Positions 1 through 45,202 of a stretch of 64,000 bases of DNA are shown here, piece by piece. Source of the stretch: Synechococcus sp. RSCCF101 (lineage in GTDB: Bacteria > Cyanobacteriota > Cyanobacteriia > PCC-6307 > Cyanobiaceae). Within the stretch, counting starts at the first letter, position 1, and the number at the start of each line of letters is the position of its first letter. Location of the stretch: positions 2,914,001 to 2,978,000 of the forward strand of contig NZ_CP035632.1 of NCBI RefSeq assembly GCF_008807075.1. The letters run 5' to 3'. Made by a program: the position numbers and the translations under genes. The notes under the pieces were generated by a model. It was not told the DNA's origin, did not search any database, and saw only the letters and a list, made by a program, of their open reading frames with translations.

Positions 1-596
1 TTGGCCGCCAGCAGCTGGCGCCGGGGCACCAGCAGCGGGATCGCAGCCTGCTCGGCTGGAGCGAAGAACTGGGTCAGCGTCGATTCCACCAGCGTCATCA
101 GCACCAGTGCCCAGTACCCCCAGCCGATGCCGAGCCAGACAGGCCCCGGCGTCAGGGCCAGCGGAATCGGCAGGGCCAGCAGCGCCCTCAGCCCGTTCGA
201 GGCCACCATCACGCTGCGCTTGGGCCAGCGATCGGCCCACACCCCCGCCACGCTCCCCAGAAGCATCGCCGGCAGCGTGTTGGCGGCGTAGATGCCGGTG
301 GCCAGCAGGGTGATCACCTGGGCCCGCGTCTCCAGATCAAGCCGCATCACCGCGGCGGCATCGGCCAGCGCCCCGCCGCTGCCCACCGCTTCGCTCGCCC
401 CGCTGACCCAGTGCCCCGCGATCAGGGCCACCATCAGCACGATGTAGAACTTGTCGGCCAACTGGGAGAAGATCTGGCCGATCCAGAGCCGGCGGAAGCC
501 GCCCAGCTGCAGCACCGACCGAACGCCCCGCTCGACCGGCTCCGGCCGCGGCTCTCGCCCGGCGGGCGGTCTGCTTTCAGCCTTGGCTGCCGGCAC
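1..596 (-). CDS. MFS transporter, N-terminal part (cut by window edge)
   Basis: Membrane transporter of the major facilitator superfamily; substrate unknown. About 198 N-terminal residues are visible and the gene runs off the left edge. A charged N-tail of about 30 residues precedes the first membrane helix (about 47-63). The loop 2-3 signature reads GVWADRWPKR near residues 118-127, the usual MFS G-x-x-x-D-R form. A further helix (GYWALVLMTLVESTLTQFF) follows. The GTG start at 596 was chosen because it follows the recO stop by three bases and no in-frame ATG lies nearby. It is the last visible member of the lrtA-deoC-recO run, so it is probably co-transcribed with it. The family call is firm; the function within the family is not. 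Confidence 0.8.
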   Translation of the reverse strand, partial: MPAAKAESRPPAGREPRPEPVERGVRSVLQLGGFRRLWIGQIFSQLADKFYIVLMVALIAGHWVSGASEAVGSGGALADAAAVMRLDLETRAQVITLLATGIYAANTLPAMLLGSVAGVWADRWPKRSVMVASNGLRALLALPIPLALTPGPVWLGIGWGYWALVLMTLVESTLTQFFAPAEQAAIPLLVPRRQLLAA

Positions 597-14648: not shown

Positions 14649-14675
14649 GGGTCTGTTCCTGTTCCCTACAGACCC
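14649..14675. terminator. Bidirectional hairpin between cysQ and the first pilin cassette
   Basis: Perfect 8-bp stem GGGTCTGT/ACAGACCC (14649-14656 and 14668-14675) with an 11-base loop. It lies 7 bases after the cysQ stop and overlaps the last codons of the convergent pilin gene. There is no long U-run, so factor-independent activity is uncertain. Confidence 0.5.
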
Positions 14676-15175
14676 TCCCTGCCGAGCCGCTCAGCCGTGC
14701 TCCCGTCGGCGATGACCCGGTTCAACGCCTGACCCGGTTGCAGGGATCCATCCAGGCCATAGGAGGGGCCGCAGCGCATCAGCACAGGCTGCTGCCAGAT
14801 CCGGCTGGGGCGGTTGCCGAGGCTGTAGGTGATCGGGCCCTGGCGGGTGTGCAGGTGCAGCACGGGCCGGCGACCGCTCAGCCGGCAGGCCGGCACGGCG
14901 ACCTGTGGGTCGCGCGCTTCGCTCTGGGCCTGGGCCCGGTCGTGGTGGATCAGATCCCGGGTCCGCTCCAGCCACTGGCGCTCGTGCATGGCCGAGAGCA
15001 GCCTCCGGCTGGCTCCGCTCTCCACCAACAGCAGCTGCAGGAAGGCCGCGGCCAGTGCCATGCCCAGAGCCGAGGCGATGAGCAGTTCCGCCAGGGTGAA
15101 GCCGTCCGATGTGCCGGTGAGGCACCGCCTGTGCCCGGCCAACGCTGATCCCCACAACCGCTGCATGGTTCTCAC
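14666..15175 (-). CDS. PilW-like type IV minor pilin
   Basis: 169-residue prepilin. A 25-residue positively charged leader ends in Gly, followed by the mature start FTLAELLIASALGMALAAAF with Glu at position 5, the prepilin peptidase/N-methylase signature. A globular C-terminal domain with two cysteines follows. It is the last gene of a four-gene cassette. Its ATG overlaps the previous stop as ATGA (15172-15175), so the products are made together. The role is inferred: a minor pilin that primes pilus assembly or forms the tip. The specific PilW label rests on position and general form. Confidence 0.7.
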   Translation of the reverse strand: MRTMQRLWGSALAGHRRCLTGTSDGFTLAELLIASALGMALAAAFLQLLLVESGASRRLLSAMHERQWLERTRDLIHHDRAQAQSEARDPQVAVPACRLSGRRPVLHLHTRQGPITYSLGNRPSRIWQQPVLMRCGPSYGLDGSLQPGQALNRVIADGSTAERLGREGL

Positions 15176-21934: not shown

Positions 21935-22576
21935 TCAGTCGACGAACTGACTCACACCCGTCCGCAGCACCATGGACTGCGTGCGGGTGGCGGTGGAGCC
22001 GATCGGACTCATCGTCACATCCACGTTCACCGTGCGGCAATCGGCGTCGTTGGTCACCGCGAAGCCAGTCACGTTGCTCATCACCAGCAGGTTGTTGAGG
22101 TTGTTGCGTGTGTCGATGTCCAGCGCACCGCTGGGCAGGATCGCGGGGCCATCGCGAAGGAGGCGGTCGTTGTTGGTGTCCAGATGAAAGCGGATCGTCT
22201 GGAGCTCGTCGGTGGGGGGATCGTTGCTGGTGTCGAGCATCGGCACCAGCATGCGCAACTGGTTGGCGACCGTGGTTGCACAGGTGGCGGCGCCGGTGGG
22301 TGCACAGCTGGCGGGGTTGCTCGTGGTGCCGAACATGCAGGCCTCGGAGGCTTCCAGCTCCATCAGGCTGTTCAGGCGGTTGAGATCCCGCTGGAAGTGC
22401 ACATCCCAGATGGTGGCCTCCGAGAGCCGCAGCTCGCCCCGCAGCAGGCTGAAGGCGGCGATGGCCACCAGGCCGGTGAGACCCAGGCTCACCAGAAGCT
22501 CGGCCAGGGTGAAGGCCCCCTGGCGGGCTCGCTGCATGGGAACAGATCGCAGGGGTGGCATCCGCTGGTAAGGCAT
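21935..22576 (-). CDS. PilW-like type IV minor pilin (cassette 2, last gene)
   Basis: 213 residues from ATG 22576. The 21-residue basic leader ends RARQGA and is followed by FTLAELLVSLGLTGLVAIAA with Glu at +5. The residue before the cleavage site is Ala, as in the PilA of this window, whereas the cassette partners have Gly. The large C-terminal domain carries a cysteine cluster (CMFGTTSNPASCAPTGAATC). It starts 8 bases after the preceding stop. Predicted minor pilin of a cassette led by the 896-residue pseudopilin; HpsB-D-like is an alternative naming. Confidence 0.68.
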   Translation of the reverse strand: MPYQRMPPLRSVPMQRARQGAFTLAELLVSLGLTGLVAIAAFSLLRGELRLSEATIWDVHFQRDLNRLNSLMELEASEACMFGTTSNPASCAPTGAATCATTVANQLRMLVPMLDTSNDPPTDELQTIRFHLDTNNDRLLRDGPAILPSGALDIDTRNNLNNLLVMSNVTGFAVTNDADCRTVNVDVTMSPIGSTATRTQSMVLRTGVSQFVD

Positions 22577-22584
22577 GGGGCGGA

Positions 22585-23136
22585 TCAGATGTCGTTCCAC
22601 TGGTCGCAGGTGGCGCGGGTGGAGCTGGCGGAGGTGTTGCGTCCGATCTCGAGAATGCCCAGAGCTCCGGTGAGACGGATGCAGCGCAGCGGGGGCTGGT
22701 CCGCCACGCTCATTCTCAGGAGCACGTCGGGGTTGGCGTTGCCGGCCGTGGCGATCGTGGCCCGAGGGGTGAAGAAGAAGGTGTCCGGTGTGGCGGCCAC
22801 ACGGGCGGTGCCACCGCCAGAAAAATCCGGCACGGTGAGCGTGGCCGGCTGGGCGCACCCAGCCGGCGTGACGCTGGCCAGCACATCACCGGCACTCAGC
22901 TGGCCGGTGCTGATGGTCACGGTGCAGGTCTGTCCGACATTGGGCGCCGAGCGGGAGGTCTGATCCAGCCACCCCGCCAGCGCGGAGGCGATGGCATTGG
23001 CTCTCTCCCGCCGCAGCACAGCGCTGAAGGTCACGATCCCAATGCCTGACATGATGCCGACGATCGCGATCACCACGACCAGTTCAGCAAGGGAGAATCC
23101 CTCGCTTCTCAGCGGTGTGGATCGACGCCGGATCAT
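22585..23136 (-). CDS. GspH/FimT-like minor pilin (cassette 2)
   Basis: 183 residues. A short 13-residue leader ends in Gly, followed by FSLAELVVVIAIVGIMSGIG with Glu at +5, the consensus pilin helix. The C-terminal domain has three to four cysteines and a GNANPDVLLRMS strand region. ATG 23136 overlaps the preceding stop as ATGA (23133-23136), so it is translationally coupled. Function inferred: minor pilin or pseudopilin within the same filament as its neighbours. Confidence 0.72.
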   Translation of the reverse strand: MIRRRSTPLRSEGFSLAELVVVIAIVGIMSGIGIVTFSAVLRRERANAIASALAGWLDQTSRSAPNVGQTCTVTISTGQLSAGDVLASVTPAGCAQPATLTVPDFSGGGTARVAATPDTFFFTPRATIATAGNANPDVLLRMSVADQPPLRCIRLTGALGILEIGRNTSASSTRATCDQWNDI

Positions 23137-23783
23137 GAGCAGAACAGTGCCATCGGTGGGGTGATGCGTTCGATTCGAAGGGCCGGATCCTCGACGTCGC
23201 GGCTGGCGTCGCCGTAGGTCACCAGCAGGCGGTTGTTGGCCAGCTTGGTGATCGTGCGGGTGGCGCCGGCCGGTACATCGATCTGTTCCTCGATGGCACT
23301 GATCAGTGGATCCACAACCTCGTTGCGCTCGCACAGCCCTGGGTTGTTCGGATCCTGATTGCTCACCAGATCCGGTTCGTTCACTGTTGTTGTTGCGGGG
23401 TTGTCGTTGCGCGGAAAGAAGTAGCGGTCGTCCAGGGGGTTGTCCGTGGCGCAGGGTGACTCGACGTCACCGGTGGCCGCTCCGTTGATCAGGTATGGGG
23501 TGATACCGGAGGGAATGCCCATGGTGCAGGCGCCGCTGCAGCAGGTGAGTTCAGCCGCCAGCTCCTGGATCCGTGCAAGATCGCTGTCGATCGCCACGTT
23601 GAGGGCGATCCGCTCGTTGCTGCGCTGCCGCTGGCGGTTGGACACCCTCCACATTTCGCTGGCGCCGATGGCGGCGATGCTGATGAGCACAACCACCAGA
23701 AGCGGCTCCACAACGCTGAACCCCCTGTCCCAATGCAGGCGCTGACGCCGGTGGAGAGCAGCTGGGGCAGCGGGCCTGGTCAT
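23133..23783 (-). CDS. Type IV minor pilin (PilV-like, cassette 2)
   Basis: 216 residues. A 21-residue basic leader (LHRRQRLHWDRG) is followed by FSVVEPLLVVVLISIAAIGA, with Glu at +5 and Pro at +6. A helix follows (RQRQRSNERIALNVAIDSDL). The globular part has the cysteines of TCCSGACTMG and a further pair. It starts by ATGA overlap with the 896-residue gene (23780-23783). Pilin identity rests on the N-terminus; the specific type does not. Confidence 0.7.
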   Translation of the reverse strand: MTRPAAPAALHRRQRLHWDRGFSVVEPLLVVVLISIAAIGASEMWRVSNRQRQRSNERIALNVAIDSDLARIQELAAELTCCSGACTMGIPSGITPYLINGAATGDVESPCATDNPLDDRYFFPRNDNPATTTVNEPDLVSNQDPNNPGLCERNEVVDPLISAIEEQIDVPAGATRTITKLANNRLLVTYGDASRDVEDPALRIERITPPMALFCS

Positions 23784-26470
23784 CGGAACAGCCCTGAGCG
23801 TGATGTGGCTCGGGCCACCCAGTCTTCACCGGTCCAGGTCACGAAGCCGAGGGTGCCGGAAGTGTCGACCTGGATATTGATCTTGTTGCCCGTCAGGGAG
23901 GGCGGAACCCGCATGTGGAAGGGGCCGAACGGCTTGAAGCGATGCGTCCAGACCCGGCCGCTGAAGCTCCAGTTGTCGTCGTTGGAGTAGAAATCGGGTG
24001 GCTGGATCGCGGCACTGCCGCTTTCCACCCTCAGCTCCAGCTGCCCCATGGGGAAGTAGAACCACACGCCGCCGATCTTGGAGGTGGAGCCGTAGCGAGT
24101 GGCGATCTTCATGGCCTGCAGTTCCGTCGGCCGGCCGCTGCCGGTCCAGTCGCGACCGAAGAAATTCAGCTGCGTCGGTTCACCGATGGGGGAGAAGAGC
24201 GAATCAGGAACCGGTGTGGTGCAGTCATCCTCCACGCTGCTGCAACGGACATGGGAGATGTCCGCCTGGTTCTGGAGAAAGATCAGAACATCGTCGGGAT
24301 TGGAGTAGGGGCTGTTGAGGTTGGTGGTGGTGCGATCGTCGCTGGGGTCGGAGTAGTAGAAGCTCAGCGGCCCCCCGGTTGTATCGATGATGATGCGCCC
24401 ACCGTTCATGTCGATCGTTGGGCCAAGGCAGTGGAAGCCGGGCTCAACAGTGATCGGGGAGAAGGCGGTGTATTCGCACCAGGCATCGCTGGCCGCTGTG
24501 GCGCCCGACTCAATCTTGATATCACTGATGTCGTAGCGTTCGTTTGTACTGTTGACCCCGCTTTCTGTTTGAAGTCGAATCCTGAAATCGCTCACTGCAT
24601 AGGATTGGTCGATAGGGAAGGTGAATTCTCTGTATGAGGTCGGTACACGGCCGCTTGACGTGCCGCCTCGGAGTTTCCCGATCTGCTGGTAGCTGGAGCC
24701 GCCATTGCGAGACACTCGAATCAGCAGCTCTTCGTTGCTGGCTCCGACCCTGCTGCCGCGTACCCTGAGGGTGAGGACAGGGTTGGTGAAGGCCGAGAGA
24801 TCGGCGCCGCGGATGAGTTGAGGTCGTGTACTGCCACCTCGCATCCGAAACCCCGTTGGGCTGCTGAGATTCTGTATGGTCCCGATCTTCACCCAGGCCC
24901 CATCCCAGGCTTCTGAGCCAGAGCTGCTGGCGAAATCGCCGTAGAAACCTGGACCGGTCGACGGCGATGGCGGAGCGCTGGTGTCCACCGAGATGGTTTC
25001 CCAGTCGCTGCCGGTGCAGTTGTCTGCGGAGATGGTTGTTTTCTTGTCGCAGATCTGCACACTTGGGGGGGTGGTGTCCGAATTCGTACGGATGCGGATC
25101 AGATCGTTCGAATTGTTGGTCTCCAGCCTGGGATAGGTGCTCCAGGCATCGGCGCCATCACGCACGTCCTTGATGATCGCCTGGGGTGGGAAGTCGTCAC
25201 TCTCATCGGAGGGCGTGCTGCTCCCCGCCCAGGAATGCAGATAGGTGCTGACCGCCGGAATGCTGCTCACTCCCACCGGGATGATCGGGATGCAGGAGGC
25301 GCTTTCGCCGAGGATGTCGGTCTCCGGGCCGGGGAAGTAGCGGCTGCTGCCGGCAGGCTGGATGCAGTTGGCTGTGGGCCGAGCCCTGGCGATGTTCCGG
25401 GCGTAGGAGCGGTCGGCGGAGTCCTGGATGCCGTTGCAGCTGCCGTTGGGCGAGGGGATCGTGCGGCATTCGTCGCGATCGAAGGCGTCGCCGCTGTTGG
25501 GCACGGCGCCGAGAATGTTGGGCAGCGACGAGATGGACCCATCCGGGTTCCGCATCGTGAAGCGGTCGTTGGCGTAATACGACCAGTGCCAGCCCCGGCT
25601 CAGACCGGACACGATCCCCATCTGCAGGCCGCAGTAGCGGCTGTCGGAGCCGAGGGACGACTGACCGCTGCCTTCCAGGTTGGTCCCGCCGGACCCCTGT
25701 GAGCCGAGGGAGGCACCACAGCATTTCGGCAGCACCTCGAATTCCTGGGTCACGGTGGAGGTGGCGATCACCTCGCCGCCGCGCACCACCTGCCCCTCCA
25801 CGGTGAGGGTGATGAAGCCCCTGTTGGCTCCGGACACGAGCGTTCCGGGGCCATCGGGGTCCTGCAGGTTCAGCAGCTGATCCCAGGTCTTGCCCGATGG
25901 AGCGGAATCGCCGCTGACCCCAGCGCCGAGGCTGGTGGTGCGGGTCAGCTCGCGGGGATTGGGAGCTCCGCTGTCGTCAGGAGCGGAGAAGGTGACGGAC
26001 GTGAGCCGAAAGCGGCGTTCTCCGGTGCCCACGGCTCCGGTGGCCACATCACGGAACTGCCCGTCTCCGAAGCTGCGGGCCAGCGTGCTGGGTTGGCCAT
26101 TTCCGCCGGGTCGCACCTCGTTGCCATTGTCGTCGAGATCGACGCAGGGGCTGCGCAGCCTGTTTCCGGTGGCGCTGGCCCACTGATTCATCGGCAGCCC
26201 TGACACCAGCATCTTGCGGTTGCGGGGCTGATTCCAGGTGCTGATGATTTCGTCGATCCCTGCTTCGGCAGCACCACGGGCCTGTTTGCTGGACGAGGAG
26301 GCGAAGACACCAACGGTGTTGTCGCTCGTCAGGGTGACGAGCGCTGCGCCGCTGAGGGCCAGCACGATGGCGGTGATCACACCGAAGGCCAGACCGGCCA
26401 TCCCCTCCTCGGCCGGCGAGCGACGGGTGGCACCCGATCGCAGCAGATGCAGCAGCAGCTTGTCTCGCAC
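23780..26470 (-). CDS. Very large pseudopilin/adhesin (HpsA- or PilX-like), head of cassette 2
   Basis: 896-residue exported protein. A 23-residue leader ends AEEG and is followed by MAGLAFGVITAIVLALSGAA, one hydrophobic helix of pilin type without Glu at +5. A charged segment with GAAEAGIDEI resembles large pseudopilins such as HpsA. The body is Ser/Gly/Asp-rich with many Cys. It includes a probable jelly-roll domain (about 500-655; for example FTNPVLTLRVRGSRVGASNE and DISDIKIES) and a C-terminal domain with KPFGPFHMRVPPS. GTG start at 26470. It is translationally coupled to three ordinary minor pilins. A tip adhesin or a polysaccharide-secretion pseudopilin are both possible. A GC dip covers its central domain. 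Confidence 0.6.
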   Translation of the reverse strand: MRDKLLLHLLRSGATRRSPAEEGMAGLAFGVITAIVLALSGAALVTLTSDNTVGVFASSSSKQARGAAEAGIDEIISTWNQPRNRKMLVSGLPMNQWASATGNRLRSPCVDLDDNGNEVRPGGNGQPSTLARSFGDGQFRDVATGAVGTGERRFRLTSVTFSAPDDSGAPNPRELTRTTSLGAGVSGDSAPSGKTWDQLLNLQDPDGPGTLVSGANRGFITLTVEGQVVRGGEVIATSTVTQEFEVLPKCCGASLGSQGSGGTNLEGSGQSSLGSDSRYCGLQMGIVSGLSRGWHWSYYANDRFTMRNPDGSISSLPNILGAVPNSGDAFDRDECRTIPSPNGSCNGIQDSADRSYARNIARARPTANCIQPAGSSRYFPGPETDILGESASCIPIIPVGVSSIPAVSTYLHSWAGSSTPSDESDDFPPQAIIKDVRDGADAWSTYPRLETNNSNDLIRIRTNSDTTPPSVQICDKKTTISADNCTGSDWETISVDTSAPPSPSTGPGFYGDFASSSGSEAWDGAWVKIGTIQNLSSPTGFRMRGGSTRPQLIRGADLSAFTNPVLTLRVRGSRVGASNEELLIRVSRNGGSSYQQIGKLRGGTSSGRVPTSYREFTFPIDQSYAVSDFRIRLQTESGVNSTNERYDISDIKIESGATAASDAWCEYTAFSPITVEPGFHCLGPTIDMNGGRIIIDTTGGPLSFYYSDPSDDRTTTNLNSPYSNPDDVLIFLQNQADISHVRCSSVEDDCTTPVPDSLFSPIGEPTQLNFFGRDWTGSGRPTELQAMKIATRYGSTSKIGGVWFYFPMGQLELRVESGSAAIQPPDFYSNDDNWSFSGRVWTHRFKPFGPFHMRVPPSLTGNKINIQVDTSGTLGFVTWTGEDWVARATSRSGLFR

Positions 26471-30381: not shown

Positions 30382-31141
30382 TTGCTGAGGATGGCTGAGC
30401 GGAATTGATCTACGGGCCTCGCTCTCGGCAGATTGCTGGGGAAGAAAGCTCTCCTCCACGCCAAGGCGACCGTCGAAAGGACCGGTACTGCGTGGCCCCC
30501 CCCCTCCGCTCACGTCATTTCGCATGCGCCGGACTTGCGGCCAAGCTCAGCGCGTGGGGCATCAAGGCCGTGAGGCTGTGGGTGTGCTCGGCTCCTGTGG
30601 CCGCTCTACCGCCGGCCAGAGACGCGCCGCTGAGCTGGACACCGCCGCATTGCCCTTGACCACTGATCTGCTTTCGCTCAGCAGGCAGGGGTGGCGGACT
30701 CTGAGCAGCTGGTCCCAGAAGCTGCCAGGGTTATCGGAGGGGTGCGGGCAGTGGTTGTTGGGACGACCAACCTCCCCCTGGTTGAGTCGACGGGGTTCGG
30801 CTTGTGCTGATCACAGCCATGATCGTCTCATCCGCCGGGGACCTCACCACGGGCAAGATGCGGAGCTTCCCCGGTCGTGGTGCCAATGGTCTCGGCAGCC
30901 CTGTGGTGCTCCATGTGTCGATCGTCCTGCCCGTTGCAAAGACGAAGCGGTGCCATGAAGAATGTAGACAAAAGTTACGCTGGAACCCTGAATAACTTAA
31001 AAGTGCCTGCGTCGCAAGGTGCGACTCTGCGGTCTGCAGCAATGGACATGGGCTCTCATCTGTGGTCCGTCATATGAGCCGAGCCAATTGCCACTACCGT
31101 TAAGCGCGGCTAGCTTGATTTCGTCACCGTCTATTTCAGTC
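30382..31141. other. Long intergenic region upstream of pilA, no convincing gene
   Basis: 760 bp between lepA and pilA. It holds a C9 run near 30495-30503, short frames of poor quality, and a stretch resembling a fragment of an amidase (listed separately). GC falls noticeably after about 30930. The part just before pilA presumably holds its promoter and leader, but I cannot place -10/-35 boxes with confidence. Confidence 0.6.
30691..30810 (+). pseudogene. Possible amidase gene fragment
   Basis: A 39-codon frame contains VIGGVRAVVVGTTNLPLVES. This resembles the block of amidase-signature enzymes just before their Gly/Ser-rich catalytic motif, where RAAGAVVVGTTNLPEF-like sequences occur. Nothing before or after in any frame continues the family. 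If real, it is a decayed remnant in the pilA pocket. A chance match in non-coding sequence is quite possible. Confidence 0.25.
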
Positions 31142-31561
31142 ATGTCTTCAGTCACGACCCTTCGGCGCGTGCTGCTTCAGCGAGCAGCCAGTCGCTCAAG
31201 TGCCAACTCGGCGTTCACCCTGGTTGAGCTCATCATCGTTGTTGCCATTATTGGCGTTCTCTCCGCTGTCGCGATTCCTCAGTTCCTCGGTGTCCGTGAC
31301 CGCGCGGAGGCCAAGGCCAACATTGGCGAGTCCATGGGCTTGGCGAAGGAGTGTGCCGCGCTCAACGTCGGCCGTGAGCCTGTGACATCAGTCAGTGGGA
31401 CCGATTGTGGCGGCCCCAATGGAACAGCTGCAACCTTCACGCCAACATGGTCTGCAACGCTTGATGCGGCTGACAATGTGACCTGCATGGATGCAGATAT
31501 CACCGGAACATCGGCGACGATTTCGGTTAGTGCCGATGGTGCCATTACTTGTGCGAACTAA
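31142..31561 (+). CDS. pilA: Major type IV pilin PilA
   Basis: 139-residue prepilin. A 24-residue basic leader ends ANSA, and the mature protein starts FTLVELIIVVAIIGVLSAVA then IPQFLGVRDRAEAKANIGES. It has Glu at +5 and the consensus major-pilin helix. The C-terminal domain has four cysteines (KECAAL, TDCGG, TCMDAD, ITCAN) able to form two disulfides. The processing site has Ala instead of Gly at -1. It stands alone, flanked by long non-coding DNA, with its own terminator. Assigned as main pilus subunit from its consensus helix and size; a genome may carry several paralogues. Confidence 0.88.
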   Translation: MSSVTTLRRVLLQRAASRSSANSAFTLVELIIVVAIIGVLSAVAIPQFLGVRDRAEAKANIGESMGLAKECAALNVGREPVTSVSGTDCGGPNGTAATFTPTWSATLDAADNVTCMDADITGTSATISVSADGAITCAN

Positions 31562-43099: not shown

Positions 43100-45202
43100 G
43101 TGCTGCTTGCCTTCGTCGGGATCGCCCTTGCCGCTCTGAGCCTGGGTGCGGTGTCGATCCCCGTCTGGCTCCGTCTGGCTGCCGCCGGGCTGCTCGCGAT
43201 GGCGGGCTGGCGGTGCATCGAAGGCGGGGTAGGCCGTCCGCGCCGCTTTCTGGCCGCCCTGGTGATGCCCGCGCTCATGGCCTGGTCGCTCTGGCTGCAG
43301 CCCCGCCCGTCGCTGCTGGACCCCGTCCATCGCATTCCCGCTGGGCAGGAGCGCAGTGCAGCGCTCAGCCTGGTGGGTTCCGTTGCGGAGACTCCCCGCC
43401 CCTGGCGGAGCGGAGAGGGGTGCAGCGCCGTTCTGGCGGTCCGTGGCGGGCGCACGGCCCTCAGCCTCAAGCCCTGCCCGCCCGACCTTCGCGCCGGCTC
43501 CCGCCTCCGCGTGACCGGTGAGCTGCGCCGGCCGCTGCCGGCGGCCCATCCCCTGCTGGATGATCCGGCGGATCGACTGTCCGGCCAGGGGATCTGGACC
43601 CGCATGACCCCGCAGCGGATCGAAGGACTCGGGCAGCGGCCGGCTCCCCTGGCCGCTCTGCGGCTGCGCATCGCCTCGGCACTGATCGGCCGTGGTGGAG
43701 AGGCCTCGGGTGGCCTGCTGGCGGCGCTGGTGCTGGGCGGGGCCGTGGTGCCCCTGCCCGAGGGCCTCACCACCGCGTTCCGGGCGGCCGGGCTCTCGCA
43801 TGCGCTGGCTGCCAGCGGCTTCCACCTTTCGGTGCTCCTCGGCGCCGCCATGGCCCTTGGCCGCCACCTGCCGGTGCTCCCACGACGGCTGACCGCAGCC
43901 GGAACACTGCTGCTCTTCCTGATGCTGGCCGGTCCCCAGCCCTCGGTGGTGCGGGCCGTGCTGATGGGCGGGGCGGCGCTGCTGGCGATGGAGGCCTCCC
44001 GGCGGACCCGGCCCATCGGCGTGCTGATGCTGACGCTGCTCCTGATGGCCCTGGTTCACCCGCCCTGGCTGCGCACGGCCGGTTTTCAGCTCAGTGCAGC
44101 GGCCACAGCGGGCCTGATCTGCAGTGCGGGCCCACTGCAGCGCGTTCTGGCAGGAGATCAGCCCTCCGCCTGGCGGCGCTGGCTCGCACCGGCGGTGGCT
44201 GTGCCGGTGGCCGCCTCCCTCTGGACGCTGCCCCTGCAGCTCTGGCATTTCGGCACCACCCCGCTCTATGCCATTCCGGCCAATCTTCTGGTCACACCCC
44301 TCCTGGCCCCGCTCACGATTGCGGCCGCCGGTCTGGCGCTGGTGGCGCTGGTCGTTCCCCCCCTGCTGGGGCCACTGGCCACGCCTGTGCTCTGGGGAGC
44401 CGCTCTGCTGCGCCACCTGGTGTCGGGGCTGGCCGCGCTGCCGGCCGCACAGCTGCACACGGGCCGTCCTGCATCGCTGCTGGTCGGGTTGCTCGTGATG
44501 GCTCTGATCCCCTGGCTTCTGGAGGGCTTCCGGCGCTGGCGACCCGGGGCGCTGGCGATGCTTGCGGCCGTGGTCCTGGTGCATGCGGGGCTGCTGTGGA
44601 GCGATCAGGTGCTGCTGGTTCATCGCTTCGGCCAGGACTGGCTGCTGGCCCGTCACCACGGCCGTGCCGCCCTCGTGGCCACCACCGCGGACGAACGCAG
44701 CTGTCGGCTGGCCGGCCAGCTCGTTCACGCCCTGGGCCACCAGGCTCTCGACTGGGTCGTGCTGCATGACCCGGTCCCCGCTCCCGACATGGGCTGCTGG
44801 GAAGCGCTGTCCGCCCAGGTGCTGTCGCCGGCTCACGGACGTCGGCTCGGGCCCGGCCAGCGTCTTCACAGTGATGGCCTGGAGTACACGCCGCTCTCGG
44901 CCGCCAGCACGGCTGCCCTGCTGCGGCTGGGAGGCCGTCCCTGGCTGCTGCTGCCCGACCGGCCCGCTCTGCTCAGCATCGCTTCGGCGCAGGCTCCGTC
45001 ACCTCCAGTGGGCGCTCTCGACGGGCTCTGGCTTGGTGCCGCCCCGTCAGTCAGCGAGCTCGCCTGGCTGGACCGGCAGCCCCACCGTCGCCTCTGGCTG
45101 AGTGGTGCTCCGCCCTCGGGCGGGGCGCCGAATCGCCGGCGCGGTGCCCTCGGGGAGGCGGCCCACACCGGCGTGATCGGTTCCCTCATGGCCCGTCTCT
45201 GA
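43100..45202 (+). CDS. comEC: ComEC/Rec2 DNA-uptake channel
   Basis: Inner-membrane channel that passes single-stranded DNA into the cytoplasm during natural transformation. 700 residues. N-terminal helices and an OB-like domain (about 60-170, SLVGSVAETPRP) are followed by the competence domain with about ten helices. Its hallmark is FRAAGLSHALAASGFHLSVL (about 232-251), the family LAxSGxH block. The C-terminal about 170 residues hold the remains of the metallo-beta-lactamase domain (LLVHRFGQDWLLARHHGRAA), but the HxHxDH metal motif is not visible. GTG 43100 abuts a 14-bp hairpin. Confidence 0.92.
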   Translation: MLLAFVGIALAALSLGAVSIPVWLRLAAAGLLAMAGWRCIEGGVGRPRRFLAALVMPALMAWSLWLQPRPSLLDPVHRIPAGQERSAALSLVGSVAETPRPWRSGEGCSAVLAVRGGRTALSLKPCPPDLRAGSRLRVTGELRRPLPAAHPLLDDPADRLSGQGIWTRMTPQRIEGLGQRPAPLAALRLRIASALIGRGGEASGGLLAALVLGGAVVPLPEGLTTAFRAAGLSHALAASGFHLSVLLGAAMALGRHLPVLPRRLTAAGTLLLFLMLAGPQPSVVRAVLMGGAALLAMEASRRTRPIGVLMLTLLLMALVHPPWLRTAGFQLSAAATAGLICSAGPLQRVLAGDQPSAWRRWLAPAVAVPVAASLWTLPLQLWHFGTTPLYAIPANLLVTPLLAPLTIAAAGLALVALVVPPLLGPLATPVLWGAALLRHLVSGLAALPAAQLHTGRPASLLVGLLVMALIPWLLEGFRRWRPGALAMLAAVVLVHAGLLWSDQVLLVHRFGQDWLLARHHGRAALVATTADERSCRLAGQLVHALGHQALDWVVLHDPVPAPDMGCWEALSAQVLSPAHGRRLGPGQRLHSDGLEYTPLSAASTAALLRLGGRPWLLLPDRPALLSIASAQAPSPPVGALDGLWLGAAPSVSELAWLDRQPHRRLWLSGAPPSGGAPNRRRGALGEAAHTGVIGSLMARL

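Follow-up and report, generated by a model that had tools for sequence, protein, structure and literature searches.

Within a stretch of 64,000 nucleotides (in the following called the window) from the genome of Synechococcus sp. RSCCF101, which comprises 2.98 Mb in a single contig, we analyzed a cassette of four open reading frames (ORFs) on the minus strand, reaching from position 26470 to 21935. The first gene encodes a protein of 896 residues, in the following called the giant, and is followed by the genes of three small pilins (p2, p3 and p4). An earlier note on this DNA had described a translationally coupled four-gene cassette led by a pseudopilin of this size. The ORFs indeed lie there, and direct reading of the sequence confirmed the coupling: the genes overlap by 4 bp (ATGA) at two junctions and are 8 bp apart at the third. 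We read the cassette as a tip-pilin operon of the HIJK type whose modular K subunit is unusually elaborate. It is conserved in the Cyanobiaceae, and relatives occur in other cyanobacteria. The four genes, with the identities suggested for their products, are:

23780..26470, minus strand: giant, GTG start, 896 amino acids, putative K/PilX-type modular tip pilin
23133..23783, minus strand: p2, 216 amino acids, glutamate at position +5 (Glu5) present, PilV/GspI- or HpsB-like minor pilin
22585..23136, minus strand: p3, 183 amino acids, Glu5 present, GspH/FimU/PpdA-type minor pilin
21935..22576, minus strand: p4, 213 amino acids, probable A|FTLAE cleavage site, GspJ/PilW/HpsC-type minor pilin

Subunit identities and the Glu5 pattern

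Among the small proteins, p3 and p4 exceeded the Pfam N_methyl cut-off and p2 weakly resembled pilin models. Homologues of p3 matched GspH/PpdA models, those of p2 matched PilV, PpdB and HpsB models, and those of p4 matched HpsC, GspJ and ComGF models. Because these matches are mostly N-terminal, the assignments of p2 as the I subunit and p4 as the J subunit are tentative. Likewise, profiles of the small pilins compared with PDB sequences yielded mainly matches to the N-terminal helix, along with a weak match of p4 to TTHA1219.

The four products are distinguished by Glu5, which is missing from the K-type giants and present in the homologues of p2, p3 and p4. The scan for cassettes demanded Glu5, but a separate, unfiltered list of homologues shows it regardless. 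In published HIJK systems the genes lie in one operon, and their products make up a complex at the tip, which is capped by K, the only subunit without Glu5 (PMC9934059). As the first and largest member of the cassette and the sole one without Glu5, the giant is, judged from sequence, best read as a K/PilX-type subunit. The likeness to GspHIJK and to FimU-PilV-PilW-PilX (PpdA-PpdB-YgdB-PpdC) thus consists of four clustered minor pilins, one of them large and without Glu5, and a GspH-type p3. The differences are that K comes first here, has 896 amino acids and carries a predicted solenoid and jelly-roll, that the gene order is another one, and that no PilY1 gene was seen nearby.

Domain architecture of the giant

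Three domains were delineated in the giant:

25721..26401, minus strand: predicted pilin-type alpha/beta module, residues 24-250 (sequence, homologue alignments, AlphaFold)
24500..24955, minus strand: predicted inserted jelly-roll, MAM/reelin-subrepeat/CBM22-like, residues 506-657 (structural match)
23801..24493, minus strand: predicted C-terminal beta-solenoid, DUF7305-related, residues 660-890 (hhalign; fold taken from a short homologue)

The hydrophobic helix of the giant begins after G23 and has an alanine instead of a glutamate at +5. Its homologues start with G|FSM, G|YSL and similar sequences, and none has a glutamate at +5. The AlphaFold model shows a long helix (residues 28-79), pilin-type strands (152-250), a beta domain (525-655) and a second, C-terminal beta domain. 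The predicted local distance difference test score (pLDDT) is mostly 70-94 from residue 61, with a mean of 62 and a predicted template modelling score of 0.49 for the model as a whole. Our analysis supports the view of the earlier note that all four products are pilin-like; for the giant, this is favored by the canonical starts of its homologues and by the pilin-like fold predicted to follow the helix. PDB sequence searches with the giant gave no useful match.

The jelly-roll that the note had considered probable is likewise supported by the model together with a structural match. Residues 506-657 aligned with reelin (2e26_A) at Z 15.1 over 133 residues with a root-mean-square deviation (rmsd) of 2.3 Å (VIA-align), and structural comparison also matched them to meprin MAM, CBM22 (4xuo) and the Kgp K1 gingipain adhesin domain (4itc). 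The Pfam model Reelin_subrepeat-B matched three of the 25 giant homologues. Presence of the domain is all-or-none: 15 homologues have 127-152 residues aligned to it and the other ten, 0-16; it is missing from the shorter giants. In a homologue tree computed after removal of the jelly-roll columns, the 15 proteins bearing the domain form one side of a single branch with 100/100 support. The pattern is consistent with a single gain within the Cyanobiaceae, although, with the root of this tree not fixed, a single loss could also account for it. As modelled, the giant appears to be a modular pilin in the sense of Pelicic, in which a non-pilus-specific domain is joined to an N-terminal pilin module. 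The modular pilins PilB and PilC of Streptococcus sanguinis similarly bear a domain of this kind for adhesion; their modules differ (vWA and lectin), whereas here a solenoid and a jelly-roll would have been added to a K-type subunit without Glu5.

The C-terminal region (residues 660-890) is closed by a conserved strand, WTGxDWVARAT. Comparing the profile of the giants by hhalign with cyanobacterial pilins bearing DUF7305 (PF23981) gave a probability of 99.4 and an E-value of 2.8e-21 over DUF7305, which is present in seven of the nine K proteins used for this comparison, taken from the weaker relatives described below. By this match, the giant falls into a broad group of large cyanobacterial pilins that lack Glu5 and end in DUF7305. 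The link is one between profiles, as a direct hmmscan match to DUF7305 was obtained for only one of the 25 giant homologues (E 0.063).

Fold searches with the full-length model were filled by jelly-roll matches, so that the missing rows for pilins and ComZ were uninformative there. We therefore modelled a short homologue without the jelly-roll (L030:7908-9617, 569 residues, pLDDT 71; here and below, L-numbers label homologous stretches in other genomes). Its best structural matches were ice-binding beta-solenoids (Z about 11). Along almost all of its length it also matched ComZ (6qvi_B), at Z 8.4 over 312 residues (70..565 on 5..522) with an rmsd of 8.7 Å, which indicates that the two domains are oriented differently in the two proteins. 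According to its published description, ComZ has a GspK-like pilin domain into which a solenoid is inserted, and this solenoid is most closely related to the ice-binding protein FfIBP. The ComZ of Thermus thermophilus (PDB 6QVI), encoded beside the three small pilins PilA1-PilA2-PilA3 and proposed to be located at the tip, is hence alike in design, with a pilin module bearing an ice-binding-like beta-solenoid. However, the giant has the extra jelly-roll, and a profile of 25 giants compared with PDB sequences revealed no sequence similarity to ComZ at E≤10; we therefore do not class the giants as ComZ.

Conservation and genomic setting of the cassette

Searching with the single protein retrieved relatives of the giant in five of 60 related genomes, and a profile search of genome contigs yielded 28 named loci. 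The named homologues belong to Cyanobium, Synechococcus, Vulcanococcus and Aphanothece, which marks the source of the window as a picocyanobacterium. The profile of 25 giants had matches in 107 of the 400 Cyanobiaceae genomes searched and in 93 of the 251 that were of good quality. The order giant-p2-p3-p4 is kept, and in the homologous loci the cassette usually lies beside serS, nifU, lepA or rseP. Twenty-one cassettes had enough sequence behind the giant to be evaluated. In 20 of them, three prepilin ORFs with Glu5 follow directly behind it, and the remaining one has two. The occurrence and order of the cassette are far beyond chance, and the co-occurrence survey that the earlier note had called for bears out its conservation as a unit in the Cyanobiaceae. 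A plain signal anchor together with a cassette not conserved as a unit, which the note had named beforehand as its refutation, was not what we found.

A second, shorter giant occurs in at least nine of the 21 genomes holding a full-length one. Several genomes have two cassettes. In one of them, that of Synechococcus sp. CS-1328 (L030 3209-10832), both cassettes are complete with four genes, lie in tandem and lack the jelly-roll. At L021 (12408-12773, minus strand) and also at L014 (1390-1755, minus strand), a short opposite-strand remnant of a second giant lies just behind the intact cassette, suggesting duplication and decay of the cassette.

Across the class, a profile search picked up weaker relatives in 25 of 145 genomes. 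Three genomes outside the Cyanobiaceae (L072, L073 and L076) have the same four-gene K-I-H-J order, and two more have tandem K-I-J triplets or a K-I pair. The tandem triplets of pilin-like genes, two in number, lie at L070 (4480-10949). These K-like triplets and the pair may be linked to the competence genes rntA/rntB, which we take as a lead only. At L071 (5568-9426), two large PilX-like proteins without Glu5 (554 and 672 amino acids) adjoin each other, with no small pilins beside them.

Downstream of the cassette lie two genes that we take, from recognition of the proteins, to be serS and rseP. Upstream are a nifU-like gene and mqo, recognized likewise, and lepA, which was named by a sequence search. 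The setting is thus one of housekeeping genes, and neither pilus nor polysaccharide genes, including hps and glycosyltransferase genes, were found among the immediate flanks.

Proposed role and alternative readings

Taking these results together, we consider it likely that the four genes encode an initiating type IV pilus tip complex equivalent to GspH-I-J-K and FimU-PilV-PilW-PilX. Conserved gene order, Glu5 pattern and domain architecture all favor the pilus-tip role that the earlier note had raised. At another place in the genome, PilB, PilT and PilC are encoded together, including a PilB-type ATPase with a neighboring platform protein; a pilus machine is thus available to the cassette products. 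We infer that prepilin peptidase would process the four subunits and that these, assembled first, would initiate the pilus, so that the giant would come to lie at its distal end. There it would serve as the K/PilX-type capping subunit, enlarged by a ComZ-like beta-solenoid and by a clade-specific MAM/CBM-type jelly-roll. The jelly-roll may bind an extracellular ligand, most likely a polysaccharide or a glycoprotein carried by other cells, by particles or by surfaces. The giant would then act as an integral adhesin of the tip and stand in for PilY1. Jelly-rolls of this kind typically serve adhesion to carbohydrates and proteins, and for that reason an adhesin appears favored.

Several observations weigh against this reading. 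The giant alone matched no Pfam, NCBIfam or PHROG model at E≤1, and matches of its homologues to PilX_N (two of 25, best E 0.02) and GspK (one of 25, E 0.026) were weak. The mean pLDDT of its model is low, with residues 253-445 largely unreliable, and the identities of p2 and p4 lean mostly on their N-terminal regions. A common fold alone is not proof that the jelly-roll binds a ligand. As for the replacement of PilY1 (PF05567), a search of 59 genomes brought up no member of this family; it failed to match any control genome as well, which makes the negative uninformative. Finally, the helix start of the giant (EEG|MAGLA) is atypical and the N_methyl model was unmatched. These last two points would also suit a surface protein of the ordinary kind, held in the membrane by a plain signal anchor, whose neighbors are coincidental. 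We regard that explanation as highly improbable given the canonical starts of the homologues, the pilin-like fold predicted behind the helix, and the conservation of the giant as a unit with three pilins.

The most serious alternative concerns DNA uptake. The cassette could form the DNA-capturing tip of a competence pilus, with the solenoid pilin binding DNA in the manner of ComZ and the small pilins acting as PilA2-like partners. The fold-level resemblance of the modelled homologue to ComZ, which in Thermus is a tip pilin that binds DNA, points in this direction, as does a comEC homologue (Pfam Competence, DUF4131) at 43100-45202 on the plus strand, about 17 kb from the cassette. ComEC was present in 102 of 107 giant-bearing genomes compared with 92 of 293 others (Fisher P about 1e-33, the genomes not being independent), and literature on S. 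elongatus and Synechocystis was cited in support (PMC7125226, PMC12288463). However, this association is confounded, as genome reduction strips pili and competence together, and 92 genomes have ComEC without a detectable giant. Moreover, the giant of the window is acidic (body isoelectric point 5.07) and poor in lysine (13 Lys), with homologues ranging from 4.6 to 8.7, and the jelly-roll added to it has a fold of the adhesion or glycan type. On balance, we judge a DNA-capturing tip possible but rather unlikely; adhesion and DNA uptake need not exclude each other.

Two further readings came from comparison with secretion systems. The earlier note had likened the cassette to hpsABCD, which would make it a pseudopilus for polysaccharide secretion and gliding. 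The likeness stands for the architecture: in HpsA-HpsB-HpsC of filamentous cyanobacteria, too, a large pilin without Glu5 comes first, followed by PilV-type and PilW-type pilins, and the HpsB and HpsC models weakly match homologues of p2 and p4. It fails for membership. HpsA has about 1500-2000 amino acids and another genomic setting. The HpsA model NF038301 left the giant unmatched at E≤1 and had no match in this genome, although in a sample drawn from across the class it matched 49 of 59 genomes. The profile of the giants resembled HpsA in the N-terminal helix region only (73 columns, probability 25%). HpsA membership was consequently rejected on sequence and on context, given the housekeeping surroundings described above, and we consider an hps-like function very unlikely. 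A type II secretion pseudopilus, one form of the secretion pseudopilus raised in the note, finds some resonance in weak matches of p3 and some homologues to GspH, GspI, GspJ and GspK models. Type II secretion machinery was searched for through its ATPases only, which revealed the PilB-type ATPase with its platform protein beside PilT and PilC. As this set belongs to a type IV pilus, such a pseudopilus becomes less likely, and we give it almost no credence.

The closest experimental analogue of the proposed tip complex in function is the pilA9-pilA10-pilA11-slr2018 operon of Synechocystis PCC 6803, which is needed for flocculation and motility (PMC6755745, PMC5924778). It likewise combines three small pilins with a further protein in one operon; slr2018 comes last, however, whereas the giant comes first. 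A 2025 review notes the difficulty of deciding which minor pilins cyanobacteria conserve and which of them build the tip complex (PMC12288463). The fixed order and the K subunit without Glu5 make this cassette a concrete candidate set. It would also extend the ideas of ComZ and of modular pilins to one subunit with a solenoid and a later-added adhesin-type domain and, if the assignment is right, offer a handle on attachment, aggregation or DNA uptake of freshwater picocyanobacteria. More speculatively, the operon with K in first position might represent a general cyanobacterial tip complex, in which K is an exchangeable solenoid receptor replacing PilY1 and the jelly-roll was grafted on once in the Cyanobiaceae. 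We put this forward tentatively; if true, genomes with both jelly-roll and plain cassettes, at least nine of 21, could swap tips according to the task, for example adhesion versus DNA uptake.

Two other pilin-like genes lie in the window. A solitary PilW/GspJ-like pilin (GFTLAELLIASALG) is encoded at 14666-15175 on the minus strand, with no other recognized pilin genes adjoining. Beyond lepA, an ORF at 31019-31561 on the plus strand, whose listed start is probably too early, encodes a further prepilin that scored above the N_methyl cut-off and is major-pilin/GspG-like.

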